This document shows positions 17,414 through 62,494 of a DNA stretch of 64,000 nt, one piece after another. The notes under the pieces were generated by a model. It was not told the origin of the DNA and did not search any database. It saw only the letters and a program-made list of their open reading frames with translations. Every line of letters starts with the position of its first letter. Position 1 is the stretch's first letter. Position numbers and translations under genes: made by a program. The DNA comes from Phycisphaerales bacterium (GTDB lineage Bacteria > Planctomycetota > Phycisphaerae > Phycisphaerales > SM1A02), in NCBI GenBank assembly GCA_029242715.1, contig JAQWTL010000020.1:62001-126000 (forward strand), written 5' to 3'.

Positions 17414-21583
<4,170 letters not shown>

Positions 21584-22043: not shown

Positions 22044-24221
22044 ATGGACAACTCACCTATCAACCTGGAACTCGAGCTCAGCGGCCTTCATTGTGCCGGC
22101 TGCGTAGCCGCCGTAACCAAGGCCTTGGAGGGCCTGGATGGGGTCGAAGGGGTCGAAGTCGATCTCCAGCAGGCTCATGCCAGCATTAGGGGGAATCAGC
22201 AACTGGATCCCCAGGCCGCCCTTTCCGCCATCAAGGCCAAGGGGTTTGGTGCCTCTATCCAGCAGACTGCCGACACCCCCATAGAACTCCGCAGCAAACT
22301 GGAACGGCGGCAGCACAATGCTGCCTGGTACTGGCAGTGGCGTGCCGCCACTGGCATGCCCATCTGGATTGCCCTTGAGATCCTTCATTGGACTGTTGGT
22401 GGCGCCGGAGCTGCACCGTGGGTGACATGGATCATGTTCGCCGGATCCACTACCGCAGTGATCCTCGTGGGAAGCGGCTTCTTCCGCTCAGCACTCCGCG
22501 CCCTTCGCGGCGGCAGCACGAACATGGACACGCTTGTCTCAATCGGAGTCCTCACAGCCTGGATCTATTCCGTTGTCCTCATGGTGCTCACTCTGAGTGG
22601 TATCGACCATGGACAGATGCCCTACTTTGCCGAGGCAGTCGCTCTGCTTGGCATCATCAGCCTTGGACACTGGTTGGAAGCAAGAGCTTCTGCGAAAGCC
22701 GGAACGGCCGTTCGCGCCCTGCTGGAACTACAACCCGAGACAGCAGAGCGTTTGGATTCATCTGGCGAATCCATCGAAGTTCCGATTGCAGACATCACTG
22801 TCGGAGATCATCTGGTTGTCCGACCCGGATCACGTGTTGCCGTAGATGGTCGTGTTCTTGAGGGCCAATCAGAACTTGATGAATCCGTTGTCACTGGCGA
22901 ACCCATCCCGGTGGCACGTGGAATCGGAGACCAGGTCACCGCCGGCAGCATGAATACGACTGGCCGACTTGTTCTGGAAGCAACCGTGGACGGCACCGGT
23001 ACTACGGTTGCCCGGATTGCGGATCTCGTGACTCACGCGATGGGCTCAAAAGCCAATATCCAAAGATTGGCAGACAAGGTCAGCAGCATCTTCGTTCCTG
23101 CCGTGCTGATCATCGCCTTGCTGACGATTGTGACCTGGTCACTCTTCTCGATCTTCCGAGGTGATGTCACGATCTTTCAAAGCGGTCTCATTGCCAGCGT
23201 GACCGTCCTGGTCATTTCCTGCCCATGTGCCCTGGGACTCGCGACTCCAATGGCCGTGATGGTCTCAGCCAGTCAGGCAGCACGTAGCGGCATCTTGGTG
23301 AAATCTGCTGTTGCTCTGGAACGCGCCGGTCTGTCCAATCGCGTGATCTTCGACAAGACCGGAACTCTGACACTGGGACGGCCCGTGGTCATGGATGTCA
23401 CGACAACGGCCGATGTGACCCGCGATCAGGTCCTCCAACTTGCTGCCGCCGTCGAGAAACCAAGCGAACATCCCATTGCCAAAGCCATCATCCAGGCAGC
23501 AGACGAAAGCGGGCTGAACATCCCGGATGTCGTTGACTTCAAGGCAACACCGGGCGAAGGAGTCTCCGGCAGGGTCGATGGACAGCGCGTTGATGTTCGC
23601 CGCGATGCCCAGGCATCCTGCCAAGTTCTGGTTGATGACCAGGAGATTGGCACAATCACGGTTGCTGATAAGGCTCGTCCTGATGCCGCTGAGGCCGTCA
23701 AGAGTCTTCATGAAATCAATGTCGCCACGACGATTCTCTCGGGTGATCGACAAGCTACTGCAGAAAACCTGGCGAAGTCAGTGGGCATTGATCCCGGGGA
23801 GGTCCATGCCGAGCAGTCACCAGAAGACAAGCAGCACTGGGTCGAAGCCTGCACAGATCAAACCATCATGGTTGGTGATGGCATCAACGACGCAGCCGCT
23901 CTGGCTGGCGCGGATGTCGGAATCGCCATGGGCACGGGAACCAACATCGCCATCGAAGCCGCCGATGTCATTGTGCCAGGTGACCGACTCACATCGGTGC
24001 CCCTGGTCATACGCATTGCGAGAATGACCCGATCAACGATCCGCCAGAACCTCTTTTTCGCGTTCCTCTACAACGGGACACTCATCCCGATTGCGGCCCT
24101 GGGGCTGCTGGGAGCCTCTGGTCCGATCTGGGCCGCCATTGCCATGGGCCTCAGCGATGTAACCGTTATTGGTAATGCCATCCGCCTTGGCCTCCGCCTG
24201 AAACGGCTGAGAGGGTCCTGA
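22044..24221 (+). CDS. copA: Copper-translocating P-type ATPase
   Basis: P1B-type ATPase exporting Cu(I) from the cytoplasm. Domains in order: one HMA domain with the metal-binding LHCAGC near residue 20, membrane helices from about residue 95, actuator motif VVTGEPIPV, the intramembrane copper motif CPCALGLATP, phosphorylation site DKTGTLTLG, the nucleotide-binding EKPSEHPIAKA, and GDGINDAAAL. About 725 residues, normal for a one-HMA CopA. The start is ATG 22044; an in-frame GTG at 22029 would add five residues. It is upstream of a six-gene run that includes a second HMA protein and a di-haem enzyme. Confidence 0.96.
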   Translation: MDNSPINLELELSGLHCAGCVAAVTKALEGLDGVEGVEVDLQQAHASIRGNQQLDPQAALSAIKAKGFGASIQQTADTPIELRSKLERRQHNAAWYWQWRAATGMPIWIALEILHWTVGGAGAAPWVTWIMFAGSTTAVILVGSGFFRSALRALRGGSTNMDTLVSIGVLTAWIYSVVLMVLTLSGIDHGQMPYFAEAVALLGIISLGHWLEARASAKAGTAVRALLELQPETAERLDSSGESIEVPIADITVGDHLVVRPGSRVAVDGRVLEGQSELDESVVTGEPIPVARGIGDQVTAGSMNTTGRLVLEATVDGTGTTVARIADLVTHAMGSKANIQRLADKVSSIFVPAVLIIALLTIVTWSLFSIFRGDVTIFQSGLIASVTVLVISCPCALGLATPMAVMVSASQAARSGILVKSAVALERAGLSNRVIFDKTGTLTLGRPVVMDVTTTADVTRDQVLQLAAAVEKPSEHPIAKAIIQAADESGLNIPDVVDFKATPGEGVSGRVDGQRVDVRRDAQASCQVLVDDQEIGTITVADKARPDAAEAVKSLHEINVATTILSGDRQATAENLAKSVGIDPGEVHAEQSPEDKQHWVEACTDQTIMVGDGINDAAALAGADVGIAMGTGTNIAIEAADVIVPGDRLTSVPLVIRIARMTRSTIRQNLFFAFLYNGTLIPIAALGLLGASGPIWAAIAMGLSDVTVIGNAIRLGLRLKRLRGS

Positions 24222-24346
24222 GCCCCCTCTCGAGCCGCCATGGTGTTTCCTTGGACTCATGGGGATGGAATGCAGGTTCTGTTCCGTACTGCTTGATACA
24301 TGCACCAATCAGGGGCATCCTGTCTACAGGACCTACAGGAGCATTG

Positions 24347-25855
24347 ATGATGGCCTCAGGACTTAGCCGCCTGAATTCGAAAGACTTCGACTACTGGGCT
24401 GCCCAGCACCTGCTCCAGAGAGCAGGCTTCGGCGGAACCCCTGCTCAGGTACTGGCCTTGAAAAACATGGGCCTGGAAGATGCCGTTGATTCGCTGATCG
24501 AATTCGAGGACGTGGATGAAACCGGAATCACCTCGGATGTCGATGGTCGTTTCGATCAGAACATCATGAAACCACTGTCACGTGATGAACGCCTGAGGCG
24601 AACCCAGGCACGCCGATCCGGCAATGAAGATGTTCTTGAACAGTTCCGCAATGAACGCCAGATGCGGCAACGATCTGATCGTCGGCAACTAGCTGAACTC
24701 CAAGCATGGTGGATGGGCAGGATGATTGAATCCAATCGCCCGTTCCAGGAAAAGATGACATTGTTCCTGCATGGCCACTTTGCCACCGGGTACCGCCCGG
24801 TTGAAGACAGCTATCACATGTTCATGCAGAACGAGTTGTTCCGAAGGAATGCCGCGGGCAATTTCAAGAATGATCTTGCACGAAACATCATCCGGGACCC
24901 CGCGATGATCAAATACCTCAACAACAACCAGAATTCCCAGAAGGCACCGAATGAGAACCTGGCCCGAGAGCTGATGGAACTCTTCACTCTTGGAGAAGGC
25001 CGCGGCTATACCGAGGCCGACATCAAACAGGGCGCCAGGGCATTGACCGGCTACACCTTTCGTGATGACAGTTTCCAGTTCAATCGTGATGCTCACGATG
25101 ATGACATCAAGGTCATATTCGGCAAACGCGGCCGCTGGAACGGGGACGATTTCATCGACCTCATCTTCATGCGACCATCCGCCAGTCAATTCGTCTGCGA
25201 AAAACTCTATCGCTATTTCGTGAACGATACGCCCGACATCGTCGATGGCGAAGGCAAATCGACCATCCGCCAAATGGCACGAGTTCTGGAATCAAACAAC
25301 TGGGAACTCAAGCCGCTTCTCAAGAAGCTTTTCATGTCCAAGGCATTCTACGCACCGGCCAACCGCGCAAGCATCATCAAGAGTCCGGTTCAACTCATCG
25401 TTCAGGCCGTGCGTTCGCTTCGAACACCTTCCCGCAACATGGCTCGGCTTGTACAGGCCAGCAGTCTCATGGGACAAGGACTGTTCACCCCTCCATCCGT
25501 CAAGGGATGGGATGGCGGCCGCAAATGGATCAACACTTCGACACTGTTCACCAGGCAGAACACACTTGTCTTTCTTCTGACGGGACGGGAGCCGGGATCC
25601 CAACCATGGTCCACAGGAGATGGCGGCTTCGACGCCCGGCACCTGGTTGATCACCTGCGAGATGTTCCTGGACGAGACCGTGATCAGGATGCAGTCACCT
25701 ATCTGTCCAGGTTCACCATCGGATCCGTTCCAGAACAGGAACGAATGAACCAGTGGGTTGAATACGTACGCGAGCGAGGAGGAGCCGACGACAACACGAC
25801 AATCGTCCGCCTCCTGGCGCTCATGACCGCTGCACCCGAGTACCAGCTCTGCTGA
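24347..25855 (+). CDS. DUF1800 family protein
   Basis: About 502 residues. Begins with the family opening (AAQHLLQRAGFGGTPAQV) and contains MTLFLHGHFATGYRPV, NENLARELMELFTLGEG and QGARALTGYTF, all typical of DUF1800. The family is abundant in Planctomycetota and is almost always next to a DUF1501 gene, as here. The pair's function is unknown. The ATG at 24347 has AGGAG five bases upstream, so upstream in-frame codons are rejected. No clear signal peptide. The DUF1501 start is 16 bases downstream. Confidence 0.93.
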   Translation: MMASGLSRLNSKDFDYWAAQHLLQRAGFGGTPAQVLALKNMGLEDAVDSLIEFEDVDETGITSDVDGRFDQNIMKPLSRDERLRRTQARRSGNEDVLEQFRNERQMRQRSDRRQLAELQAWWMGRMIESNRPFQEKMTLFLHGHFATGYRPVEDSYHMFMQNELFRRNAAGNFKNDLARNIIRDPAMIKYLNNNQNSQKAPNENLARELMELFTLGEGRGYTEADIKQGARALTGYTFRDDSFQFNRDAHDDDIKVIFGKRGRWNGDDFIDLIFMRPSASQFVCEKLYRYFVNDTPDIVDGEGKSTIRQMARVLESNNWELKPLLKKLFMSKAFYAPANRASIIKSPVQLIVQAVRSLRTPSRNMARLVQASSLMGQGLFTPPSVKGWDGGRKWINTSTLFTRQNTLVFLLTGREPGSQPWSTGDGGFDARHLVDHLRDVPGRDRDQDAVTYLSRFTIGSVPEQERMNQWVEYVRERGGADDNTTIVRLLALMTAAPEYQLC

Positions 25856-25871
25856 GACATTGGAGTACACC

Positions 25872-27164
25872 ATGTCCGATCGCAACGAACATCCCTGGAG
25901 CCGACGCCTGTTCATTCAACAAGGTGTCACTCTGGCCTCGCTAGCAGCAACAACCCCGCTGTTCATCCAGCAGACCGCCAAAGGTGTCATGTTGCCTCTG
26001 GGATCCGCATTGAGTTCGATACCTGGAGTTCCCCAGGACAAAATCCTCGTGATCGTGCAACTTGGCGGTGGCAATGACGGCCTCAACACCGTCATTCCCT
26101 ACGGCAGTGACGACTATTACCGCGCTCGACCGAACATCGCCATTCAGCAGCCTGGTCGCGGCAATGATGCCGCCCTGCAACTTTCCCAGGCCAATGGCAT
26201 CGGGCTTCACCCCTCGATGGTCGGGCTGAAGTCACTCATGGATGACGGCGTTGCTTCCATTGTGCAGGGCGTGGGATATCCCAATCCGAACCGATCACAC
26301 TTCTCATCCATGGATATCTGGCACACCGGCAACCCGGAAGGACGCAGAGGCAGTGGATGGGTCGGTCGTTACTTTGATAATGCATGCAAGGGCGCACCAA
26401 ATCCCGAGATTGGCATCTGCGTTGGAAACAGTGCCCCGCTGGCGATGCAGGGCGACACGGTCATGCCCGTGAGTTTCGAGAAAGCCGAGCTCTACCGATG
26501 GATGGGTGAAGATCTCGATAATGGACTGTCCCGTCCCTACCAAGGCGTCGCGGGAGATGGTTCCGATTCAGACAGCGCAGATCAACTGGCCTTCCTCAAG
26601 CGAACAACGATGGATGCCCAGGTGTCCTCCAAGAAAGTGCGCAAAGCAGTCGCCCAGCAACCACTGGTCGCCTATCCAGGCGGCAATCTGTCGGATCAAC
26701 TGAGAATGATCGCCGCCATGATCCGATCAGAAATGCCAACACGCGTCTATTACGCCAGCATTGGTGGCTTCGATACACATGCCAATCAGGCTGGCCAGCA
26801 TTCCAGACTCTTGCGGCAGGTAGGTGATTCGCTCAAAGCGTTCTATGGAGACATCAAGGCCCAGGGCAACAGCGGACGAGTCCTCACGATGGCGTTCTCC
26901 GAGTTTGGCCGCCGTGTTCCCCAGAACGCTTCTGGCGGAACGGATCATGGAACTGCTGCACCGATGTATTTCATTGGCGACATGATGAAGCCCGGCGTCC
27001 ATGGCACACACCCATCCCTGAAGAACCTTGATAATGGCGATCTCAAGTTCACCGTTGATTTCCGCTCTTGCTACGCAGGCGTTCTGAATGACTGGATGGG
27101 TGCGGATGCCAACGCGGTTCTGGGACGCAAATGGAAATCCGCCCCGATCATCAAGAACGCATGA
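25872..27164 (+). CDS. DUF1501 family protein with Tat-like signal
   Basis: About 430 residues in the alkaline-phosphatase-like/sulfatase-like superfamily DUF1501. An N-terminal twin-Arg-like SRRLFIQQG precedes a hydrophobic stretch, suggesting export in folded form. Conserved features: ILVIVQLGGGNDGLNTVIPY, NRSHFSSMDIWHTG, GGFDTHANQAGQH, and the late FSEFGRRVPQN...GTDHGTAAPMY, which place metal-type residues. The ATG at 25872 follows GGAG; a TTG at 25860 lies within the ribosome site. The stop overlaps the HMA gene start (ATGA). It works with DUF1800 in an unknown process. Confidence 0.93.
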   Translation: MSDRNEHPWSRRLFIQQGVTLASLAATTPLFIQQTAKGVMLPLGSALSSIPGVPQDKILVIVQLGGGNDGLNTVIPYGSDDYYRARPNIAIQQPGRGNDAALQLSQANGIGLHPSMVGLKSLMDDGVASIVQGVGYPNPNRSHFSSMDIWHTGNPEGRRGSGWVGRYFDNACKGAPNPEIGICVGNSAPLAMQGDTVMPVSFEKAELYRWMGEDLDNGLSRPYQGVAGDGSDSDSADQLAFLKRTTMDAQVSSKKVRKAVAQQPLVAYPGGNLSDQLRMIAAMIRSEMPTRVYYASIGGFDTHANQAGQHSRLLRQVGDSLKAFYGDIKAQGNSGRVLTMAFSEFGRRVPQNASGGTDHGTAAPMYFIGDMMKPGVHGTHPSLKNLDNGDLKFTVDFRSCYAGVLNDWMGADANAVLGRKWKSAPIIKNA

Positions 27165-27457
27165 GACTGCTATCAGCCATCCTGCTGGTCAGCAGCGTGA
27201 TCCTGGTCGCGTGCAAACCCGCCGACACCCAGGCTGAACCCATATCGTCAACGCTCTGGATCCAGGGAATGCACTGCGAAGACTGTGCGTCAAGTATCCA
27301 CCAATCCGTCATCGTGATTGATGGTGTCGAGACCTGCGAGGTCTCCTTTGAGAGCGGCCAGGCCACCATTACCGCTGACGACCCCGCAACCATCGGGAAT
27401 GCAGCCAAACGAATCCGCCTGATGGGCTTCACCGTTGATGAGACGCCCGACTCCTGA
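27161..27457 (+). CDS. Lipoprotein with a heavy-metal-associated (HMA) domain
   Basis: About 98 residues. The signal peptide ends in the lipobox LVAC, then one HMA fold with IQGMHCEDCASSI (MxCxxC copper site) and the matching C-terminal GFTVDE strand. HMA proteins of this type normally act in the cytoplasm (CopZ) or as N-domains of CopA. A lipid-anchored extracytoplasmic form is unusual and would pick up Cu(I) in the periplasm. Overlap with the DUF1501 stop implies translational coupling. Confidence 0.88.
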   Translation: MRLLSAILLVSSVILVACKPADTQAEPISSTLWIQGMHCEDCASSIHQSVIVIDGVETCEVSFESGQATITADDPATIGNAAKRIRLMGFTVDETPDS

Positions 27458-27505
27458 GCAAACAGCCCGCACAATTCCAGTCACGGCCTACACTGTGCCA
27501 GTTCC

Positions 27506-29332
27506 ATGCTCTTCGTATCACTCATCATGCTGTTGGCCTGCAGCCAGCCCGGCCCCACCTCGCAGGATGAAAGTCATCCTGCCGCCTGGGATCTGACTGT
27601 AGAAGACATGGCTGCCCCCAGCGCCGTCGCCATGCTTCCGGATGGACGGGTCCTCGTGACCGAACCACATGCCCATCGGATCGCTGTCATCAACAGCAAT
27701 GGAAGCCGTCAGCACAACTGGGGAGAACACGGGATCAACCGAGACCAGTTGCATCGGCCTGCCGGTATCGATACCGATGGACATGGCACCATCATCGTGG
27801 CGGATGCGGGGAATCACAGGATCAAGTTCCTGGACGAAAACGGTCGGACACAAGGTGTCATTGTGGACTGGGACGACATCCCCTTCCGAAATCCGCAGGA
27901 TGTCGCGATCTCGCAGAACTGGATCGCGGTCGCTGACACGGGCAATGACCGTGTGTGTGTCAGAAGCCGGAGCGAAGTCAAGGGCTGGTGCGTCGATCTT
28001 TCTGTCTCACTGAGATCTCCCCAGGGGATTGATGTCGATGATGATGGCGCAGTTTGCATCGCTGATACCGGCAACCATCGCATCCTCATCTTCAATCCCG
28101 ATGGTTCACTTCGAACCGAGTACGGAGACTGGGGACGCTTTCCTGGAATGTTCGCCGAACCAACCGGCATCGAATTCCACGGTGAACTCGTCTATGTCGC
28201 CGATCGACTCAATCACCGTATCCAGGTCCTGACCCGGGATGGCGAACCGGTGACCTGGTGGGGCATGCATGCTGTCGTTCCAAGACAGGGCGAAGGCCAC
28301 ATCCACTACCCCTCCGACATCACCGTCTCAGCAGACGGACAACGAGCCGTCGTGAGCGAACCCTTTGAACGACGAGTCCAGTTCTTCAAGCCAGGCCCCC
28401 CCTCCAGGCCTGAGCCCTCCAAGACTCGTGCACCCAGAGGATTGCAATCGCACTTTGGACATCAGGTTGAAACCGGTGGACGAGGTCTGGTGACATGGGA
28501 ACCCGAGGTCCGCAGCCTTGCGGTCTTCGTCACTGACCGCGAGATTCCGATTCATGTCACGACCTTCGGCACACCCGGAACAGGGCCCGGCCGAATCGGC
28601 GACATCGCGGATCTCAGTTGGAATCAAACCACCGGTGCCTTGAGTGTCATTGACCGTGGCAATGACACCATCCAACGATGGCGCATCACACTGCCGCCGC
28701 TTGAAGCCCTGCGATACGACCCGGATGCAGCAGTGCTGCTGGACTCCAGTCCGATGCCGCATGTTCAACTGAACCGTCTTCTCAAACCGGCTTCCGCCGT
28801 GCAGGATGATTCCGGAACGCTTCTTGTCATTGATGACTCCCTGGACCTCGTCGTCACACTGAAGGACAAGGACATCCAGACATGGAACCTGGAACTGGAT
28901 CCTGTCGCAATCGGAACCGATGGAAAAACCATCGCCATCGCTGATGGACGAACTGGACGCATCCACCTCTATGACCAAGATCACCAACCCGCCAACATCA
29001 TCGGACCAGCTCCTGGACTGGAACATCCCTGGCCCGGAGGTGTCGCCATCCTGGATGATGGCAGCGTCGTAGTAAGTGATACAGCCGCAGACCGAATCGA
29101 TCACTTTTCTGCCAATGGCGAACACCTTCACACCTTTTCAAGCTCCGGTGGCGAACATGGCCAGACGTGGATGCCTGGCGAAATCGCCCAGGACGCCTCC
29201 GGACGAATCATCGTCCTGGACCATGGCAACCATCGCATGCTGGGCTTCGAACCCGGTAATGACTGGGTACTGACCTTTGGACTGGGCAGAGCAATGACCC
29301 CGGAACGACTGCAACGGAGTTCGAAACCATGA
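27506..29332 (+). CDS. NHL-repeat beta-propeller lipoprotein
   Basis: 608 residues. A very short signal ending in the lipobox MLLAC, followed by repeated NHL units with the pattern DxxGxxxVADxxNHRI: for example IIVADAGNHRIKFL, VCIADTGNHRILIF, VYVADRLNHRIQVL and SVVVSDTAADRIDHF. This predicts one six-bladed propeller plus a second, more degenerate one after about residue 300. Such propellers serve as binding platforms or as enzymes. An N-terminal Arg/Lys is missing from the signal, so export is likely but not certain; no alternative start exists before the in-frame upstream stop. It overlaps the next gene by ATGA. Confidence 0.85.
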   Translation: MLFVSLIMLLACSQPGPTSQDESHPAAWDLTVEDMAAPSAVAMLPDGRVLVTEPHAHRIAVINSNGSRQHNWGEHGINRDQLHRPAGIDTDGHGTIIVADAGNHRIKFLDENGRTQGVIVDWDDIPFRNPQDVAISQNWIAVADTGNDRVCVRSRSEVKGWCVDLSVSLRSPQGIDVDDDGAVCIADTGNHRILIFNPDGSLRTEYGDWGRFPGMFAEPTGIEFHGELVYVADRLNHRIQVLTRDGEPVTWWGMHAVVPRQGEGHIHYPSDITVSADGQRAVVSEPFERRVQFFKPGPPSRPEPSKTRAPRGLQSHFGHQVETGGRGLVTWEPEVRSLAVFVTDREIPIHVTTFGTPGTGPGRIGDIADLSWNQTTGALSVIDRGNDTIQRWRITLPPLEALRYDPDAAVLLDSSPMPHVQLNRLLKPASAVQDDSGTLLVIDDSLDLVVTLKDKDIQTWNLELDPVAIGTDGKTIAIADGRTGRIHLYDQDHQPANIIGPAPGLEHPWPGGVAILDDGSVVVSDTAADRIDHFSANGEHLHTFSSSGGEHGQTWMPGEIAQDASGRIIVLDHGNHRMLGFEPGNDWVLTFGLGRAMTPERLQRSSKP

Positions 29333-29763
29333 CTCGTTCAATCCTGATGGCAACATTGTTTGCCTGCGCCCTTCTGCACACTGCCTGTCGAAATCCCGGC
29401 ATGCCCACTCTGGTCGCTTCCCCATCAGCCAATACGGTTGCATCCAACGACGGGCAATACACCTTCTACTGGGTGCCAAAGCCCAATCCGATTCCACTGA
29501 ATCGTTTCTTCTCAATGGATGTCGAGGTCCTGGACCTGTACGGAAACCCCGTCACCCCGGAATCCGCATCACTCACCGTTGACGCCGGCATGCCTCAGCA
29601 TGGTCATGGGATGAATCACGTGCCACGAATCAAAGCCCAACCCGATGGAACCTGGATGGCAGAAGGTTTTCTGATGCACATGCCAGGTGATTGGCAACTC
29701 TACTTCGACCTTGAGGTGGAGGGGGTCTCCCATCGTGGGCAGACACCACTGGTGGTCGATTGA
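29329..29763 (+). CDS. YtkA/FixH-like small lipoprotein, His/Met-rich
   Basis: 144 residues. The signal peptide ends in HTAC, a weak lipobox. The mature domain has an immunoglobulin-like YtkA pattern: MDVEVLDLYGNPVTPES, then DAGMPQHGHGMNHVPRI, then the conserved LMHMPGDWQLYFDLEV. The Met/His clusters (MPQHGHGMNH, MHM) are typical copper ligands of CopC/YtkA-like periplasmic proteins. It overlaps both neighbours (ATGA upstream, TGATG downstream) and sits immediately before a MauG-type di-haem enzyme, which makes it a candidate partner or substrate. That link is inference. Confidence 0.8.
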   Translation: MTRSILMATLFACALLHTACRNPGMPTLVASPSANTVASNDGQYTFYWVPKPNPIPLNRFFSMDVEVLDLYGNPVTPESASLTVDAGMPQHGHGMNHVPRIKAQPDGTWMAEGFLMHMPGDWQLYFDLEVEGVSHRGQTPLVVD

Positions 29764-31022
29764 TGATCCTCTTGCTGGTGCTGATCCTGGCAGGCTCCCC
29801 GACGTCGCTCACTGAACAACAGCAACGACGGATCGCAGGCCTGCAGATGTCCTCTGCGATCCCCGGCGATCCCACCAACAGAATCTGGGACAACGAACAG
29901 GCCGCTGTTCTCGGGCAGAGAGTCTTCTTTGATCCAGGCTTCTCCCGCAACGGTGAAGTCTCATGCGCCACCTGCCATGATCCGGCTCTTGGTTTCGCCG
30001 ACGGTAAACCTCTGCCCATGGGGCTCGCCCAAGGTGAACGGCATGCACCGTCTCTTCTCAATGTTGCAGGGCACCGGTGGTTCTTCTGGGATGGTCGTGC
30101 AGACACGCTCTGGGCACAGGCCCTTCATCCCTTTGAACGTGAGGAGGAATTCGGTTCCTCCAGACTCGAAGTACTCCACCGAATCCATTCTGATCCATTG
30201 CTTCGAAGCCAATACGAACAGGTCTTCGGATCCATGCCGCAGTTGGATGACATCAACCGTTTTCCACCAAGGGCACGGCCTGGCAGAAATACCCAGGCAA
30301 CGGAAGTTGTTGCATGGAATGCCATGGCCGAGGAAGACCAGGAAGCCGTCAACATTGCATTCGCGAACCTGGGCAAGGCAATTGCTGCCTATGAACATCA
30401 ACTCATCACCCCGCCCAGTGACTTCGATCGGTTCGTGGACGCAATGCTCGCAGGAAATCAGAAGGGGATGACCGTGCTTTCCCCCGCCGCTCAAAGAGGC
30501 ATGTTGCTGTTCGTTGGAGAGGCCGGCTGCCGGCAATGCCACAATGGTCCGCTGCTGAGCGATCTTGAATTTCACAACACTGGCATTCCAAATGCAGACG
30601 GATCGATGCCAAGCGACCCGGGGCGATGGAAAGGGATCCAACTGCTTGGCGAAAACCCGTTCCGGGCAAATGGGGCCTACTCCGATGCGCCCGAGAGCCG
30701 GCGAGGGCAATCCACCGCATCACTGGCACGCAATTCAGAACACTGGGGCGCCTTCAGAACCCCCTCCCTGCGGAACCTCAACCAGACCGCCCCGTACATG
30801 CATCAGGGGCAGTTTTCGACCCTTGGAGAAGTCCTAGACTTCTACAACACCCTTGAGGGCATGGTGGTCATGGACCATCATCAGGAAACCGTCTTGGCCC
30901 CTCTGGGCCTCACATCAGGGCAACTGGCTGATCTTGAAGCATTCCTTCTGAGCCTCTCCAGCCCACCTCCAAATGCCTCTCTGATGGCCCCACTACCCCT
31001 TGAAGACCCCCATTCACCCTGA
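29763..31022 (+). CDS. Di-haem cytochrome c peroxidase/MauG-family protein
   Basis: About 419 residues, exported. Two c-type haem sites are visible: SCATCH near residue 60 and CRQCH near residue 258. Between them are family landmarks LNVAGHRWFFWDGRADTLW, FGSSRLEV and the central GKAIAAYEHQLITPPSDFDR, and after them FRTPSLRNLNQTAPYMHQGQFSTL. CcpA enzymes reduce peroxide; MauG/MbnH enzymes use a high-valent haem pair to oxidise side chains of partner proteins. Which applies cannot be read from this alone. The start ATG overlaps the YtkA-like stop by one base, and it ends the operon. Confidence 0.92.
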   Translation: MILLLVLILAGSPTSLTEQQQRRIAGLQMSSAIPGDPTNRIWDNEQAAVLGQRVFFDPGFSRNGEVSCATCHDPALGFADGKPLPMGLAQGERHAPSLLNVAGHRWFFWDGRADTLWAQALHPFEREEEFGSSRLEVLHRIHSDPLLRSQYEQVFGSMPQLDDINRFPPRARPGRNTQATEVVAWNAMAEEDQEAVNIAFANLGKAIAAYEHQLITPPSDFDRFVDAMLAGNQKGMTVLSPAAQRGMLLFVGEAGCRQCHNGPLLSDLEFHNTGIPNADGSMPSDPGRWKGIQLLGENPFRANGAYSDAPESRRGQSTASLARNSEHWGAFRTPSLRNLNQTAPYMHQGQFSTLGEVLDFYNTLEGMVVMDHHQETVLAPLGLTSGQLADLEAFLLSLSSPPPNASLMAPLPLEDPHSP

Positions 31023-31149: not shown

Positions 31150-33405
31150 GTGTTCAGACTGCAGGTCCTAGCCACCGTTGCCACGGGGTCGGTCATTGTT
31201 GCTTCCGCCCTGGCACATCAGGACGATCCAAAGCTTCGTGACCGCCAGCCACCAGTCCAGGCAGATGCCTTCAGGGCCGATCTGGACAAGGCCGACCATG
31301 TCCGAGGAGCCTTCGAGTCCGATGGCATCATGATGCTCAGTTGGCTCTCCCTTTCCGCACTCGGTGGTTACCAGAGCGGCAATGACTGCTGGGGTTACGT
31401 ATCACCTTCTGGACGCGAGTACGCCCTCATGGGTGTCAACTCCGCCACGATCTTTGTGGATGTAACCGTGCCAGGCAACGCAACCATCGTCGAAACCATC
31501 AGTGGACCAGACAGCCTCTGGCGCGATATCAAGACTTACCAGAACTATGCCTACTCAGTCTCTGAGGGCGGCAGTGGTATCCAGGTCATGGACATGTCCA
31601 ATATTGACCTGGGTGTTGTCACGCTCGTGAATACCATCACGGATGGTGGCACCTCCGCTACGCATAATGTCGTGATCGATACGACAAGCGGATTCCTCTA
31701 CCGCACAGGTGGCGGCAGCAACGGACTGCGTATTTATGATCTCAATCCGGATCCTGCAGCACCGGTATACGTAGGCACCTGGACGAACAAGTACGTACAT
31801 GACGCCCAGATCATCACCTATCCAGCTGGAACGCCCTACGCAGGAAAGCAGATCGCATTCTGCTACGCAGGGTTCAATGGCGGCTGGGAACAAACCGGGC
31901 TGACGATCCTTGATGTCACCAACAAGTCCAATATCGTCATCCTTGGCGAGCTGGAATACACCAACAACAACTACTCCCACCAGGGGTGGGTGAGTGAGGA
32001 TCTGCAGTACGTCTACCTGAACGATGAACTGGATGAACAGAACACGGGTACGCCCACGACTACACGAATCATCGACGTGTCTGATCTCTCGAGCCCCGGC
32101 CAGGCCGGCACATGCTCCACAGGTCTGACATCCATCGATCACAACCTCTACATCCATGGGGACCGGATGTACCAGGCCAACTACCGCAGTGGCCTGCAGG
32201 TATTTGACATCTCTGACCCACTCTCCCCTGTCCGAACCGGCTGGTTCGACACCTACCCGGGAGATGACGGAGCCAGTTTCAACGGGATGTGGAGCAACTA
32301 CCCATACATGCCCAGCGGGATCACCATCTGCAGTGACCTCGAACGGGGCTTGTTCGTCCTGAGTGCTGCGAGCATCGAGATTTCACTTCTCGAAGATCTT
32401 CCCGAACTGCTTTCACCAACAGGTGCCACGCTACCTGTTCGTATTCGCGGACTTGCTGGCAACCAAGCAGATCCGGACACCTTCAAGCTTCTGGTGAATG
32501 ATGGCTCTGGTGAACAGATCATCCCCCTTTCCCCGACAAGCGATCCGGAAGTCTGGAATGTGAACTTCCCGAACATGGACTGTGGCAACTTCGCCAACTG
32601 GCATGTCACAGCAACCTCCCTTTCCGGACAGACCGTCACCCTCCCCAGCGGAGGCCCTTCGAATCCGTATGAAACACTCGTTGCAGATGGACTCATTGAA
32701 ACCTTCAAAGATGACTTCCAGACCGATACCGGCTGGACTGTCGAGATCGATTGTATTGATGGCGAATGGACACGCGGCGTACCTGTCAACGGAGGACGCG
32801 GCGATCCGGTAACCGATGCAGATGGCAGCGGCCTCTGCTTCGTCACTGACAATGAGATCGGCAACTCCGATGTCGACGGCGGACTGACAAGGCTCGTATC
32901 ACCGACTCTTGATGCTTCGGCAACCGGTGCCATCCTGACTTACTGGCGGTGGTATTCAAACGACTTCGGTGCCGCCCCCAATGAGGACATCTTCCTCGTG
33001 GAAGTCTCCGACGACGGTGGAACCAACTGGTTCACCCTGGAAACCGTTGGCCCCGATGGTCTGGGAACCTCCGGCGGCTGGTTCCAGAAGCAGTTCCCGA
33101 TTGATTCCATGGGAGGCATTTCGCCCTCGGACAACTTCCGTGTCCGCTTCACAGCAGAAGACAGCGGAAGTGGATCAGTGGTTGAAGCTGGTGTCGATGG
33201 CGTCTCCATCACGGCTGTTGATTGTGACGATCTGGAAGACTGCCCGGCAGACTGCGCCAATGGTGATGGCGTTGTCGATGTCCAGGACATCCTGGAGATC
33301 CTGGCACAGTTCGGAACCGCCGGTGACTGCGACGTAAACGGCAACGGAGTGGTCGATGTCTCGGATATCCTCGAGGTCATATCCGCCTGGGGCGTCTGTC
33401 CCTAG
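31150..33405 (+). CDS. Choice-of-anchor-B family secreted protein with C-terminal dockerin repeats
   Basis: 751 residues. Signal peptide (LATVATGSVIVASALAHQ). Residues of about 50-420 match the choice-of-anchor-B/LVIVD-like propeller: LSLSALGG, GNDCWGYVSPSGREYALMGV, WRDIKTYQNYAYSVSEG, STGLTSIDHNLYIHGDRMYQANYRSGL. A beta-sandwich region around residue 540-690 follows (MAM/laminin-G-like look), then two EF-hand-like repeats, NGDGVVDVQDILEIL and NGNGVVDVSDILEVI, ending AWGVCP. Start is GTG 31150 with AGGAG 9 bases upstream. Likely surface-located; the binding target is unknown. Confidence 0.9.
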   Translation: MFRLQVLATVATGSVIVASALAHQDDPKLRDRQPPVQADAFRADLDKADHVRGAFESDGIMMLSWLSLSALGGYQSGNDCWGYVSPSGREYALMGVNSATIFVDVTVPGNATIVETISGPDSLWRDIKTYQNYAYSVSEGGSGIQVMDMSNIDLGVVTLVNTITDGGTSATHNVVIDTTSGFLYRTGGGSNGLRIYDLNPDPAAPVYVGTWTNKYVHDAQIITYPAGTPYAGKQIAFCYAGFNGGWEQTGLTILDVTNKSNIVILGELEYTNNNYSHQGWVSEDLQYVYLNDELDEQNTGTPTTTRIIDVSDLSSPGQAGTCSTGLTSIDHNLYIHGDRMYQANYRSGLQVFDISDPLSPVRTGWFDTYPGDDGASFNGMWSNYPYMPSGITICSDLERGLFVLSAASIEISLLEDLPELLSPTGATLPVRIRGLAGNQADPDTFKLLVNDGSGEQIIPLSPTSDPEVWNVNFPNMDCGNFANWHVTATSLSGQTVTLPSGGPSNPYETLVADGLIETFKDDFQTDTGWTVEIDCIDGEWTRGVPVNGGRGDPVTDADGSGLCFVTDNEIGNSDVDGGLTRLVSPTLDASATGAILTYWRWYSNDFGAAPNEDIFLVEVSDDGGTNWFTLETVGPDGLGTSGGWFQKQFPIDSMGGISPSDNFRVRFTAEDSGSGSVVEAGVDGVSITAVDCDDLEDCPADCANGDGVVDVQDILEILAQFGTAGDCDVNGNGVVDVSDILEVISAWGVCP

Positions 33406-33446
33406 CAGCCAGCGATCCCAAGGGAACGCTTCCGTATAGCATGCGG

Positions 33447-33480
33447 CACGGGCCGGTCCACTCGGATCGGCCCGTGTTTC
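33447..33480 (+). terminator. Rho-independent terminator after the choice-of-anchor-B gene
   Basis: A 13-bp stem (CACGGGCCGGTCC with GGATCGGCCCGTG, one wobble pair), 4-base loop, then TTTCTTTCT. It ends 20 bases before the next gene. Confidence 0.88.
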
Positions 33481-33499: not shown

Positions 33500-35485
33500 A
33501 TGGGCTGTGGTTCCTGTACATCATGTGGCGACGGTGGCTGCCAGGGACTCCTCCCTGAAGCCGATCTGCCAACATCTCTGCCACTGGTGGTCTATGACGG
33601 CAACTGCGGATTCTGCCGGCGATGGCTGAAGCGATACGAAGCACTCACCCCGCCAGGTAAATTGGCATGGGCCTCCTACCAGAAGGCGGCAGGCACTTTT
33701 CCAGGTATTCCCGAAGCGCAGTTTCAAAAGGCCATACATCTCGTCCAACCGGATGGCAGCCATACACGTGGCGCTGAAGCCGTCTTCGAGATCATGAATC
33801 ACGCAGACCTGAGATCCTGGCCACTGTGGTGCCAACGAAATCTGCCACCCTTCCGGGCCACCTGCAATGGCTTGTATCGAGTGGTTGCCAGGAACCGTCG
33901 CATGGCAGGAACAGGTGGCCGTCTTCTCTGGGGAAGTCTCCAGATTCCCTCCACCACTCTTCTGACACGGCGAATCTTTCTGCGACTGCTGGGCCTGATT
34001 TATCTCCTGGCCTTTCTGTCCATTGGTTCACAGGCAGCAGGACTCATCGGGCCTGATGGACTTCAACCGTATGAGCAACGACTCGAACAGATCGAAACGT
34101 ATGCCAACGCGGAAGGCACGAGCGCCTTTCTGCTGAATCCGACCATTCTCTGGGCAGGAGGCCCGGGGCTTCTTGATACGACCTGGATTATTGGTTTGAT
34201 TGCCGCATCCGCTCTGGTCCTTGGTCTTGTGCCGATGCTTTCCATGGGCATTGCATGGGCGTGCTACCTCTCCATTGTGAATGTAGCTGGAGTCTTCACG
34301 GGCTATCAGTGGGATGCACTTCTGCTTGAAGTCGGGTTCCTGGCCATTTTCTGGGCCCCTTGCTCATGGCGACTCAACAGCCAGCATGTGCGGCGTTCTT
34401 CCACTCTGCTGCGATGGATGCTCCTCTGGCTGCTGATGCGATTCATGTTCACATCCGGCTGGGTCAAGTTGGCAAGCAACGATCCGACCTGGTGGGATCT
34501 CACGGCATTGGACTACCACTACTGGTCTCAGCCGCTTCCCTGGTGGCCCGCCTGGTACGCGTGGCAACTGCCCATGTGGTGGCAGAAAGCCAGTTGCTTG
34601 ATCATGTTCATCATCGAACTGGGCGTTCCGTTCCTGGTCATCTTCCCTCGTGTCCCCAGACTCATAGCCTTTCTGGCCCTCGTGTTGCTGCAGATTGGCA
34701 TCTTGATCACGGGCAACTACGGCTTCTTCAACTGGCTCACGATTGTCCTGTGCCTGGTGCTGCTGGATGACAGTCAATTGTTGTGGCTGTGGCCCAAGCG
34801 GGCACGAGGCATGATTCGTGTGGGCTTGACCCGTCGTGAATCTCCACCACGACGTGTGTTGAATGTAATCGTTGCCCTGTTGCTGCTGAGCCTGACCATC
34901 CCGATCACCGTGTCGCAACTCCAGGACAAACGTGTCAGTGCCTGGCCACGAACGATGGCACCATGGCATGTGGCGAACGGATACGGACTCTTCCGGGTGA
35001 TGACAAAGACCCGGCCGGAAATCACGATCGAAGGTTCAAACGATGGGGTGACGTGGTTGCCGTACATGTTCCGATGGAAGCCCGGACCGCTTGACCGGGC
35101 ACCTGCATTTTCCCAGCCAGGCATGCCACGGCTGGACTGGCAAATGTGGTTTGATGCCCTGAACTACGAGCTGGCCTGGGAACGGGGCTACCTTCCGAAT
35201 GGTGGTGGGCTTGCCCGAGGGTCAAATGCGTTCGCAAGCGTCAATGGAGGGCAGGTGACACCCGCACTCTGCGCATCATTGGCCCGAGGGGACGCAGCTG
35301 TCCTTGATCTGCTGGCGTCGTCCCCCTTCCCCGCAGGCCAACCTCCTCGATACCTTCGATGGCACCTGGATCACTACCAGTTCACCACAGCTGACCAGCG
35401 TGATGAAACGGGCAACTGGTGGACGAGCAAACGCCTTTTTACCTCTGGCGTCCTGAAATCAACCCCTGAGCTCAGCCGCCCTTGA
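33500..35485 (+). CDS. Fusion of DUF393 (DCC) thiol oxidoreductase and lipase maturation factor
   Basis: 661 residues in three parts. First, a Cys-rich N-terminus (MGCGSCTSCGDGGCQG). Then a DUF393/DCC thioredoxin-like domain with the signature VVYDGNCGFCRRWLK near residue 30. From about residue 145, a multipass membrane region resembling lipase maturation factor (LMF1): YQWDALLLEVGFLAIF, LLRFMFTSGWVKLAS-type helix, and a soluble C-terminus with SNDGVTWLPYMFRWKPG. LMF1 helps disulfide-rich lipases fold in eukaryotes. The fused CxxC domain suggests a bacterial membrane complex for disulfide handling. The role is inferred. Confidence 0.87.
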   Translation: MGCGSCTSCGDGGCQGLLPEADLPTSLPLVVYDGNCGFCRRWLKRYEALTPPGKLAWASYQKAAGTFPGIPEAQFQKAIHLVQPDGSHTRGAEAVFEIMNHADLRSWPLWCQRNLPPFRATCNGLYRVVARNRRMAGTGGRLLWGSLQIPSTTLLTRRIFLRLLGLIYLLAFLSIGSQAAGLIGPDGLQPYEQRLEQIETYANAEGTSAFLLNPTILWAGGPGLLDTTWIIGLIAASALVLGLVPMLSMGIAWACYLSIVNVAGVFTGYQWDALLLEVGFLAIFWAPCSWRLNSQHVRRSSTLLRWMLLWLLMRFMFTSGWVKLASNDPTWWDLTALDYHYWSQPLPWWPAWYAWQLPMWWQKASCLIMFIIELGVPFLVIFPRVPRLIAFLALVLLQIGILITGNYGFFNWLTIVLCLVLLDDSQLLWLWPKRARGMIRVGLTRRESPPRRVLNVIVALLLLSLTIPITVSQLQDKRVSAWPRTMAPWHVANGYGLFRVMTKTRPEITIEGSNDGVTWLPYMFRWKPGPLDRAPAFSQPGMPRLDWQMWFDALNYELAWERGYLPNGGGLARGSNAFASVNGGQVTPALCASLARGDAAVLDLLASSPFPAGQPPRYLRWHLDHYQFTTADQRDETGNWWTSKRLFTSGVLKSTPELSRP

Positions 35486-61054: not shown

Positions 61055-62494
61055 TCATCCCTGGTCTGATTTGTCCGGCTGTGGAAGTCGCCCTGGTTCA
61101 CGGACCCCCCGGCCTTCCCGCTTGACGAGATTGTCACCCAGATCAACGCGAGCAGCCTCGACGAGTTCAAGCATCCTGGCGACAACCTCCGGGTTCGCAT
61201 GCTGAACATCGGTCGTCTCACCTGGATCAATCTCGACATCGTAGAGCGCCAGATCCTGCTTCATGCCATAGGTGTATTTGGTGGGTTTGCCACCAGTTCC
61301 GCCTGGACGACCTTCCATGGATCGATACGTATGAGGCAGGTGCAGCTTCCAACGACCCCAGCGAATGGCTTCCAGATTGTTTCGCCCGTAGTAGAAGAGG
61401 TAGACCTCCTGCGGTGATTCAGCACCGGATTCACTGACGAGCACTGGCAGAGCATCACGGCCGTCAATGGGTCGAGTGGGCAGATCTGCCCCGACGATGC
61501 CAGCAACGGTTGGCAGAACATCAATCGTCATCCACATGGTGTCATTCACATGACCTGGCTGAACATGCCCTGGCCATCGGGCAATACAGGGAACCCGAAC
61601 GCCGCCATCAAATGTAGTTCCCTTGGCTTCACGAAGATGGGCCGTGGTGCCAGCATGATCGCCATAGTTGATCCAGGGGCCGTTGTCAGATGCGAAGATC
61701 ACGAGGGTTTCATCCGAAAGCCCTTCTTCTTCAAGAGCCTCGAGGATCTGGCCAACTGACCAGTCGATCTCCTGCATCACGTCACCGTAGAAGCCCTGTT
61801 CACTGCTTCCCTTGAAATCTTCATCTGCACCCAACGGCACATGAGGCTGAGGATGAGGCACATAGAGAAAGAACGGCTCATCAGCATGTCGATGAATGAA
61901 ATCAACCGCGCCCTCGGTGAGGCGTCTGGTGATGGCATCCTGATCGTCGTAATCCTCAACGATTTCGATCGTCTCATCACCACGAATCAAAGGAAGCTTG
62001 GGCCAGTTCTTCGGGGTCACGGGGTGGCCGGGCCACATGTCGTTGGAATAGGGAATGCCAAGGTATTCATCGAAACCATGGTGCACCGGCAGGAACTGCT
62101 TGTGATGTCCAAGATGCCATTTTCCAAACATGCCTGTGGCGTATCCACGTGATTTGCAGATCTCCGCCAGCGTCGTCTCGTCTTCGTGAAGCCCATGCTT
62201 TGCAGAAGGCGCCAATGCGCCATGAATGCCAAGACGGTTGGGGTAACAACCCGTCAACAATGCTGCTCGAGATGCAGAACAGACTGGCTGGGCGACATAG
62301 AACCTGGTGAAACGCGTTCCATCACGTTCCATCTGGGACAGATTGGGCATCTCCCAACCAGTAGCTCCCTGGGAGGGCAGATCACCCCATCCCATGTCGT
62401 CCACGAATACCACCACGATATTGGGGCGCTCCTGCCGGGATTCAACCGGGGCGCCCATGCCGAGACACAGAACCATCAAGCTTAGATTGAACAT
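61055..62494 (-). CDS. Secreted arylsulfatase
   Basis: About 479 residues of the alkaline-phosphatase superfamily. A signal peptide (MFNLSLMVLCLGMGAP), metal site NIVVVFVDDMGWGD, then the catalytic loop PVCSASRAALLTGCYPNRLG, whose Cys would be converted to formylglycine. GMFGKWHLGHH and FASDNGPW follow. The core is C-S-A-S-R, not C-x-P-x-R, the form accepted by anaerobic-type maturases (anSME). The likely substrate is a sulfated polysaccharide. ATG 62494; the frame extends to 62566, but only the inner start has a signal peptide. Confidence 0.92.
   Translation of the reverse strand: MFNLSLMVLCLGMGAPVESRQERPNIVVVFVDDMGWGDLPSQGATGWEMPNLSQMERDGTRFTRFYVAQPVCSASRAALLTGCYPNRLGIHGALAPSAKHGLHEDETTLAEICKSRGYATGMFGKWHLGHHKQFLPVHHGFDEYLGIPYSNDMWPGHPVTPKNWPKLPLIRGDETIEIVEDYDDQDAITRRLTEGAVDFIHRHADEPFFLYVPHPQPHVPLGADEDFKGSSEQGFYGDVMQEIDWSVGQILEALEEEGLSDETLVIFASDNGPWINYGDHAGTTAHLREAKGTTFDGGVRVPCIARWPGHVQPGHVNDTMWMTIDVLPTVAGIVGADLPTRPIDGRDALPVLVSESGAESPQEVYLFYYGRNNLEAIRWGRWKLHLPHTYRSMEGRPGGTGGKPTKYTYGMKQDLALYDVEIDPGETTDVQHANPEVVARMLELVEAARVDLGDNLVKREGRGVREPGRLPQPDKSDQG

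Follow-up and report, generated by a model that had tools for sequence, protein, structure and literature searches.

MbnH makes kynurenine in its partner MbnP. The copper proteins MopE and CorA contain kynurenine derived from a Trp near the copper, and their di-haem neighbours have been proposed as its makers (sections of PMC3912023); MbnP and MbnH themselves have been called mysterious partners, conserved far beyond the methanobactin producers and unclear in role (sections of PMC3621798). CrdA is a copper-resistance protein for which no di-haem partner is mentioned in the cited sections of PMC9182242, and Sb-PTE is, by a title cited in PMC11656708, a binuclear-metal seven-bladed propeller. 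Here we compare with these systems a locus on contig JAQWTL010000020.1 of a Phycisphaerales bacterium (assembly GCA_029242715.1; 3.2 Mb in 46 contigs), using positions 62,001 to 126,000, a stretch of 64,000 nucleotides that we call the window. An earlier note on this DNA had proposed a seven-gene copper operon running from a CopA gene to a di-haem enzyme. We find instead that the conserved unit comprises four genes, encoding an NHL-repeat propeller lipoprotein, a YtkA/CrdA-like lipoprotein, a MauG-like di-haem enzyme and a choice-of-anchor B (LVIVD) propeller, here AnchB. To the reading that this locus is a four-protein extracytoplasmic metal-handling module, in which the YtkA-like protein and the di-haem oxidase would supply or activate AnchB, we give about even weight.

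The same-family set comprised 181 genomes, of which 124, the window's own genome counted, had a YtkA match. Neighbourhoods were collected for 120 of the other 123 YtkA loci (G097, G098 and a fragment in G175 were left out) and scanned as stop-to-stop frames with profiles made from the window genes; second YtkA matches, one stop-broken (G148) and one fragmentary (G020), were ignored. The NHL propeller gene lay directly upstream of YtkA in 116/120 loci, and a di-haem gene lay within 1 kb of YtkA in 116/120 as well; all four NHL misses and all four di-haem misses fell where a contig ends, the bases left numbering no more than 432 and 195, respectively. NHL and YtkA occupied one open frame in 26 loci from six genera, and throughout genus g7 (11/11 loci) the di-haem gene was inverted relative to YtkA with adjacency kept. 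AnchB was found within 4 kb of YtkA in 98/120 loci; among the 22 loci without it, 11 were on contigs that stop within 2.4 kb downstream and 11 had at least 6.6 kb of downstream contig, and nine genomes of this last group carry AnchB elsewhere. Tandem AnchB duplicates stood beside the module in several genera (L044, L045, L066, L070, L082, L092, L095, and L112).

Presence across the 181 genomes, which are related and not independent, was scored at E 1e-3 for YtkA, 1e-40 for MauG and 1e-30 for AnchB, giving 124 genomes with YtkA, 126 with the MauG-type di-haem gene and 137 with AnchB. YtkA and the di-haem gene occurred together in 121 genomes and were both missing from 52; three genomes had YtkA only and five had the di-haem gene only. 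All three YtkA-only genomes have YtkA close to a contig end; of the five di-haem-only genomes, the loci of four were fetched, and in each the contig breaks off within or right at the di-haem gene, with AnchB alongside. The pairing of YtkA with the di-haem enzyme, which the earlier note had suggested from the window, is well borne out, being conserved in 116/120 loci and found as a complete pair in 121 genomes against eight with only one member. AnchB and YtkA were both present in 117 genomes and both absent from 37, with AnchB only in 20 and YtkA only in seven.

The four genes upstream of this core behaved differently. CopA, DUF1800, DUF1501 and HMA lipoprotein genes were linked in 19, 19, 19 and 13 of the 120 loci; the CopA/DUF1800/DUF1501 block was confined to five genera and the HMA lipoprotein to three of these, the exception being one of the 19 CopA matches, which was in a sixth genus (g39) and on the opposite strand. 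SecA and LMF1 genes (the latter in 19/120 loci) lay nearby in the same five genera, so that CopA, DUF1800, DUF1501 and HMA are linked no more closely than unrelated neighbours are. Upstream of the NHL gene, six other genera (L043, L044, L056, L060, L115, and L140) had a divergent CitMHS_2 transporter gene (putative citrate transport), and genus g2 had a different DUF1501 upstream; the scan of frames outside the module took in 16 of the 30 upstream and 4 of the 26 downstream frames listed. The earlier note had proposed a search for conserved neighbourhoods and had asked for gene order conserved beyond the DUF1800/DUF1501 pair; such order was found, in the YtkA-centred core. Its view that CopA, DUF1800, DUF1501 and the HMA lipoprotein are integral was not supported by the same search, and DUF1800 and DUF1501 were rejected as core members on their distribution. 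All four appear to belong to a lineage-specific neighbourhood outside the core, to which they may feed copper.

The Pfam match that names the YtkA-like protein was marginal (PF13115, 26.8 bits against a cut-off of 25.9), so its identity was tested further by fold and by profile. A single-sequence model reached a predicted local distance difference test score (pLDDT) of 85.9, four of the five models being poor, and its best fold match was CrdA of Helicobacter pylori (Foldseek E 4.1e-5; Z 14.0, with 10.3 for the entry that follows). Up to E 10, the sole PDB match of a profile built from 23 module YtkA sequences was CrdA (E 1.2e-5); the window sequence alone gave no convincing PDB match. By fold and profile the YtkA-like protein is a copper-type protein, with copper binding predicted, in support of the earlier note's reading. 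Among 121 YtkA-like sequences, M88, P89, H91, H93, G94, M95, M118, G120 and W122 were invariant, H117 was kept in 113 and MPxHxHGM occurred in 121; outside the family, the position of M95 can be Leu or Phe. The protein does not conform to the CrdA-type, Met-only copper motif without His, and by sequence comparison with CrdA the HxH, unlike the Trp, is peculiar to the module. Since CrdA has the same conserved Trp, the case for the YtkA-like protein as the oxidised substrate is weakened, and the Trp loses force as proof of a MauG substrate; the earlier note's suggestion, made by analogy, that the di-haem enzyme oxidises YtkA stays an unproven one. G148:C36:793-1038 holds another, weak YtkA-like stretch, which is broken by three TAG stops and may be a decayed copy.

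The di-haem enzyme had both CxxCH motifs in 116/116 proteins and Tyr362 in 115/115; a Tyr was also present in 67/67 of a second set and, at the corresponding position, in 29/29 MbnH rows. In all five alignments printed, Tyr362 fell opposite a Met residue in cytochrome c peroxidases. We take this Met to be the distal haem ligand and Tyr294 to be the MauG counterpart of Tyr362. Although the best solved sequence relatives of the enzyme are cytochrome c peroxidases, Tyr in place of the distal Met is the ligand pattern of the MauG/MbnH type, and this pattern supports assignment to that class at scores below the cut-offs of both families (MbnH, TIGR04039, 144.3 bits against 362.85; MauG, TIGR03791 or TTQ_mauG, 137.5 against 443.85). 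A branch with support 100/99 in a 68-row tree separated the MbnH rows from the YtkA-linked di-haem enzymes. No MbnP match at E 0.01 was obtained among the nine window genes scanned, the neighbour of the di-haem gene being YtkA-like.

AnchB, the member that the earlier note left out, may be distantly related to the metallo-propeller Sb-PTE, and a metal centre is predicted for it from a weak remote match and from invariant His and Glu residues. In the family, H23, H172, H217, H277, H331 and E293 were invariant in 102/102 proteins; in a set of 241 homologues spanning this and further families of the phylum as well as Pseudomonadota, Bacteroidota and others, H172, H217, H277, E293 and H331 were present in 241/241 and position 139 was acidic in 240/241. 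An AlphaFold2 model of residues 23-407 had a pLDDT of 88.3, with the first 17 residues below 50, and its best fold match was the Sb-PTE entry 5HRM (Foldseek E 4.9e-11; Z 33.7 over 325 residues), which suggests a seven-bladed propeller, the blades not having been counted directly and many WD40 proteins being close. Up to E 10, a 16-row profile (A1) had no PDB matches other than Sb-PTE entries (E 0.0011 and 0.0022), and the window AnchB sequence alone gave no Sb-PTE match there. Two weak local alignments placed H277 and H172 of AnchB on Sb-PTE His residues (offset +87) that we take to be the metal ligands H258 and H389. The six Sb-PTE metal ligands presumably run E-H-H-H-E-H; the AnchB order acid139, H172, H217, H277, E293, H331 equals this presumed order, two of the six being directly aligned, in weak stretches. 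A copper propeller like that of nitrous-oxide reductase was also considered and set aside as less likely, no such chain being among the fold matches listed. The window AnchB has a GC-type dockerin-like end that scored 22.3 bits, under its cut-off of 29. We found no paper on choice-of-anchor B in the open-access literature searched and, judging by title and abstract start, no relevant one under LVIVD; the family is apparently uncharacterised.

Within the family, H23 directly followed an Ala or Gly at the predicted signal-peptidase site in 101/101 AnchB proteins. A predicted mature N-terminal His was found in 113/113 AnchB proteins examined from YtkA genomes (101 from the family, 11 from L188-L198, and L201) versus 8/24 from genomes without a YtkA match (L182-L187, L199, L200, and L283-L298, one protein each), with a Fisher value of 2.5e-15 that ignores shared descent. 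The mature N-terminus was judged by eye or by pattern, and L190 and L198 have neither Ala nor Gly just ahead of the His; the comparison excluded a weak second AnchB in L284, AnchB fragments whose shortness allowed no judgement, and the five proteins of L299-L302 (di-haem gene present, no YtkA detected), all five of which have the His. The genomes without YtkA divided by lineage: the His was seen in 0/11 from genera g13-g17, most of whose proteins start right at the propeller, 0/4 from four other order-level relatives, 4/4 from the related genus g46, and 4/5 from G059, G073, G093, G031 and G028, where some proteins are incomplete. Four proteins from a related genus (L184-L187), in whose genomes no YtkA-like gene was found, start with H(E/Q)(N/D)WR after the signal peptide, and in L202-L245 a His-led motif in a different context follows a signal-like stretch in 44/44. 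With g13-g17 and Bacteroidota members without it, the N-terminal His is ruled out as a universal feature of choice-of-anchor B.

Outside the family, AnchB was found in 127/392 genomes of a phylum-wide sample, 87 of them above the cut-off. Six of 19 extra-family AnchB loci, from three family-level groups, had YtkA and a di-haem gene nearby, sometimes in altered order or convergent orientation; a seventh, from a fourth family-level group, had only NHL and YtkA nearby, and the remaining 12 had neither YtkA nor a di-haem gene nearby. A frame of about 1500 amino acids or more with a weak MauG-profile match was seen a few kb from the module in L189, L191 and L196, all of one family-level group. On a Pseudoalteromonas replicon, AnchB stood divergent from an MbnP-MbnH pair, both members of which scored above the NCBIfam cut-offs. 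When bacterial genomes were scanned with an alignment headed by this Pseudoalteromonas AnchB, the result was 81 loci (the best 80 plus the Pseudoalteromonas record), a set biased to relatives of the query: MbnP and MbnH were next to AnchB in 33/81 (Pseudomonadota), an MbnH-like gene lay within the fetched flank in 13 Bacteroidota loci, and there was no MbnH match in 35/81, some on short contigs. The MbnH scores in two Bacteroidota genomes that were checked, 265.7 and 236.8, are under the cut-off of 362.85. In the Bacteroidota locus L268, a gene that is MbnP-like by eye lies between the AnchB and MbnH-like genes, and three to five AnchB genes stand in a row upstream of the MbnH-like gene in L267, L268 and L280.

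Because the 81-locus scan was biased to relatives of the query, an evenly drawn sample of the Pseudoalteromonas order was taken as a check (99 genomes including the centre genome; MbnH at E 1e-90, AnchB at E 1e-60). MbnH was found in 15 of these genomes, AnchB in 20, and both in eight. Seven of the eight had MbnH and AnchB about 1.4-1.7 kb apart on the same contig (six of seven without the centre genome), and the eighth had them on separate contigs; these counts make AnchB a frequent, not an obligatory, neighbour of MbnH. The analogy to MbnP and MbnH, which the earlier note drew from the window alone, is stronger as a result, because Pseudomonadota and Bacteroidota, too, have MbnP-MbnH or MbnH-like genes in the neighbourhood of this propeller family.

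Support from sequences and models extends to the kinds of protein (one CrdA-like with a Met/His loop, one di-haem and Tyr-ligated, and two propellers) and to their constant association. As a mechanism, we propose that the YtkA-like lipoprotein would take up Cu(I) through its Met/His loop, as its predicted fold and ligand pattern suggest, and that the di-haem enzyme, MauG/MbnH-like by ligand pattern, would oxidise a residue of a partner with peroxide. The NHL propeller, which is often found as a fusion with the YtkA domain, could scaffold the pair. The beneficiary would be AnchB, a secreted protein whose Sb-PTE-like metal centre is predicted from a weak remote match and from invariant His and Glu residues, and which the YtkA-like protein and the di-haem enzyme would supply or activate. 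Which protein is oxidised we hold less surely than the reading as a whole. A wider proposal, which we put forward tentatively and think rather less likely to be right than wrong, is that AnchB proteins are widespread secreted Sb-PTE-like metallo-propellers that, in Pseudomonadota, Bacteroidota and the window's phylum, could be activated or metal-loaded by a copper-protein and di-haem pair, with either MbnP or, independently, an HxH YtkA/CrdA-like protein; the N-terminal His accompanies the pair in the window's phylum and might be a histidine-brace-like copper ligand.

Several observations weigh against the four-protein module and its proposed beneficiary. AnchB is absent from 11/120 loci despite the length of contig downstream, and 20/137 AnchB-bearing family genomes have no YtkA match; in the Pseudoalteromonas order, 12/20 AnchB genomes lack MbnH at E 1e-90 and 7/15 MbnH genomes lack AnchB. 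The relation to Sb-PTE is challenged by WD40 propellers that are nearly equal by fold (Z up to 31.7 against 33.7, among the matches listed), by the Sb-PTE stretches behind the A1 match, which score 8.0, 2.3 and 6.8 bits and are not significant singly, and by a 33-row profile (A2) that ranks Sb-PTE (E 0.077) after 19 asparaginase entries, weak matches that we took to be spurious. The N-terminal His tail is disordered in the model, no N-terminal His was seen in Bacteroidota AnchB, and the His and YtkA presence are both inherited, so that their contrast does not consist of independent events.

In a rival arrangement the di-haem enzyme would modify AnchB instead (at a Trp, Tyr or His near the metal centre, or at the N-terminal His tail) and the YtkA-like protein would be only the copper donor, its HxH being a transfer site and not a cofactor site. 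AnchB is what the YtkA-MauG and MbnP-MbnH settings have in common, its N-terminal His tail follows the presence of the module in the phylum, and the YtkA Trp is not specific to the module; however, YtkA and MauG are linked more tightly to each other than either is to AnchB, and Bacteroidota AnchB proteins near MbnH-like genes lack an N-terminal His. It is also the neighbouring copper protein that bears the kynurenine in MopE and CorA (sections of PMC3912023). We consider modification of AnchB rather unlikely. It is a good deal less probable that no protein is modified at all, the di-haem enzyme being a cytochrome c peroxidase that removes peroxide, the YtkA-like protein a copper sponge, both protective at the surface, and AnchB an unrelated secreted hydrolase: Tyr replaces the peroxidase Met in every enzyme compared (115/115), and AnchB stays close by in other families of the phylum and also, with a different copper protein as neighbour, in Pseudomonadota, even though the closest solved relatives of the enzyme are peroxidases and CrdA is a copper-resistance protein (sections of PMC9182242).

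The seven-gene operon of the earlier note, in which CopA and the HMA lipoprotein move copper, DUF1800 and DUF1501 help and the di-haem enzyme oxidises YtkA, seems to us improbable. General synteny accounts for its block, which persists in the same five genera as the nearby SecA and LMF1; six other genera have the CitMHS_2 transporter divergently upstream, and AnchB is left out of the scheme. The tight spacing and the overlaps of the genes do speak for it, as does a same-strand upstream arrangement with DUF1800 and DUF1501 in 19 loci (five genera), CopA in 18 and HMA in 13. The four-protein module is the reading that we carry forward.

The features of the locus are collected below. All seven co-directional genes of the earlier note are present with the positions, spacing, overlaps and domains that it gave: ATGA overlaps occur at 27161 and 29329 and TGATG at 29761-29765, with a 48-base gap ahead of 27506; the last gene has both haem motifs (CATCH and CRQCH), and HMA domains are found in CopA, together with an E1-E2 ATPase domain in the domain scan, and in the lipoprotein. 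Its end of the module at 31022 has to be moved, as the same-strand AnchB gene comes next. Scans for terminators (8 found versus 8.2 expected by chance) and promoters (0 found versus 4.9 expected) are weak evidence. Lipoprotein and export signals were judged by eye; a lipobox pattern survey was unreliable and was not used (one version gave 69/94 single YtkA frames and 6/90 NHL frames). Beyond AnchB, positions 33500-35485 encode a DCC1-like thiol-disulfide oxidoreductase domain fused to an LMF1 (lipase maturation factor) region, with a Cys-rich N-terminus. The SecA gene at 17414-21583 on the minus strand encodes 1389 amino acids; SecA is usually about 900 amino acids long.

Features of the metal-handling locus and its surroundings, in window positions
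Feature	Position	Strand	Match or remark
CopA, Cu-type P1B ATPase, one HMA domain	22044..24221	+	TIGR01511, 528.7 bits (cut-off 397); lineage-limited neighbour, membership doubtful
DUF1800 protein	24347..25855	+	PF08811, 369 bits; lineage-limited neighbour
DUF1501 protein	25872..27164	+	PF07394, 92.7 bits (cut-off 27); lineage-limited neighbour
HMA-domain lipoprotein (MerP/CopZ-like)	27161..27457	+	PF00403, 46.3 bits; lineage-limited neighbour
NHL-repeat propeller lipoprotein, core member	27506..29332	+	PF01436, 127.9 bits
YtkA/CrdA-like lipoprotein, core member, predicted copper site MPxHxHGM...HMxGxW	29329..29763	+	PF13115, 26.8 bits (gathering cut-off 25.9)
YtkA-like codons for M88, H91, H93, M95, H117, M118, W122	29590..29694	+	
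MauG/MbnH-type di-haem enzyme, core member, two CxxCH	29760(TTG)/29763(ATG)..31022	+	PF03150 (CCP_MauG), 140.9 bits
Tyr362 codon of the di-haem enzyme, position of the cytochrome c peroxidase Met ligand	30843-30845	+	
Choice-of-anchor B (LVIVD) propeller, AnchB, fourth core member	31150..33405	+	TIGR04312, 329.6 bits (cut-off 100)
AnchB conserved residues 23, 139, 172, 217, 277, 293, 331	31216 (codon of residue 23)		residue 23 is the predicted mature N-terminal His
Terminator-like hairpin, 15 pairs, 3' of the AnchB gene	33445..33478	+	strongest in the scan, which overall is at chance level

Among the known systems, MauG, which goes with methylamine dehydrogenase, resembles the module enzyme in its two CxxCH haems and its Tyr at the distal ligand position; it differs in that no methylamine dehydrogenase is found among the nine window genes scanned and in that the TTQ_mauG score is under the cut-off. 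CrdA (PDB 9LL2/9LL4) resembles the YtkA-like protein in fold and profile and in the MP, GM, M and W positions common to both, but it is without His in the cited sections of PMC9182242, whereas the module protein has HxH, mostly a third His, and a di-haem neighbour. The phosphotriesterase of Sphingobium TCM1 (Sb-PTE, PDB 5HRM/5IOJ) is the best fold match of AnchB and the sole match of profile A1; AnchB differs from it in low sequence similarity, in having no link to phosphotriesters and in its N-terminal His tail. MopE/SACCP and CorA/CorB of methanotrophs likewise combine a copper(I) protein with a co-transcribed di-haem peroxidase-like protein (sections of PMC3912023 and PMC3621798); no similarity to MopE or CorA was seen, no search aimed at it having been made, no propeller partners are described in those sections, and a modified residue in the module would be hypothetical. 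We found no description of a link between AnchB and copper-protein/di-haem pairs in the open-access literature searched, and among the papers listed that name both MauG and YtkA none was relevant by its title. A further comparison is with MbnP and MbnH (TIGR04052/TIGR04039), where a copper-type partner gene again stands beside a Tyr-ligated di-haem enzyme and the pair adjoins AnchB in 7/15 MbnH genomes of the Pseudoalteromonas order, with MbnH-like genes near AnchB in 13 Bacteroidota loci; the module differs in that its partner is YtkA/CrdA-like and not MbnP, in its separate group in the tree and in its additional NHL propeller. A third gene family beside MbnP/MbnH-type pairs, together with a second copper partner, offers a concrete candidate for what such pairs serve; the AnchB family gains a testable prediction of a metal site, and with the conserved four-protein set, tests of these poorly understood copper and haem gene pairs become easier. 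Different lineages join one propeller family to two kinds of copper partner, which makes the unit more interesting than a local copper operon.

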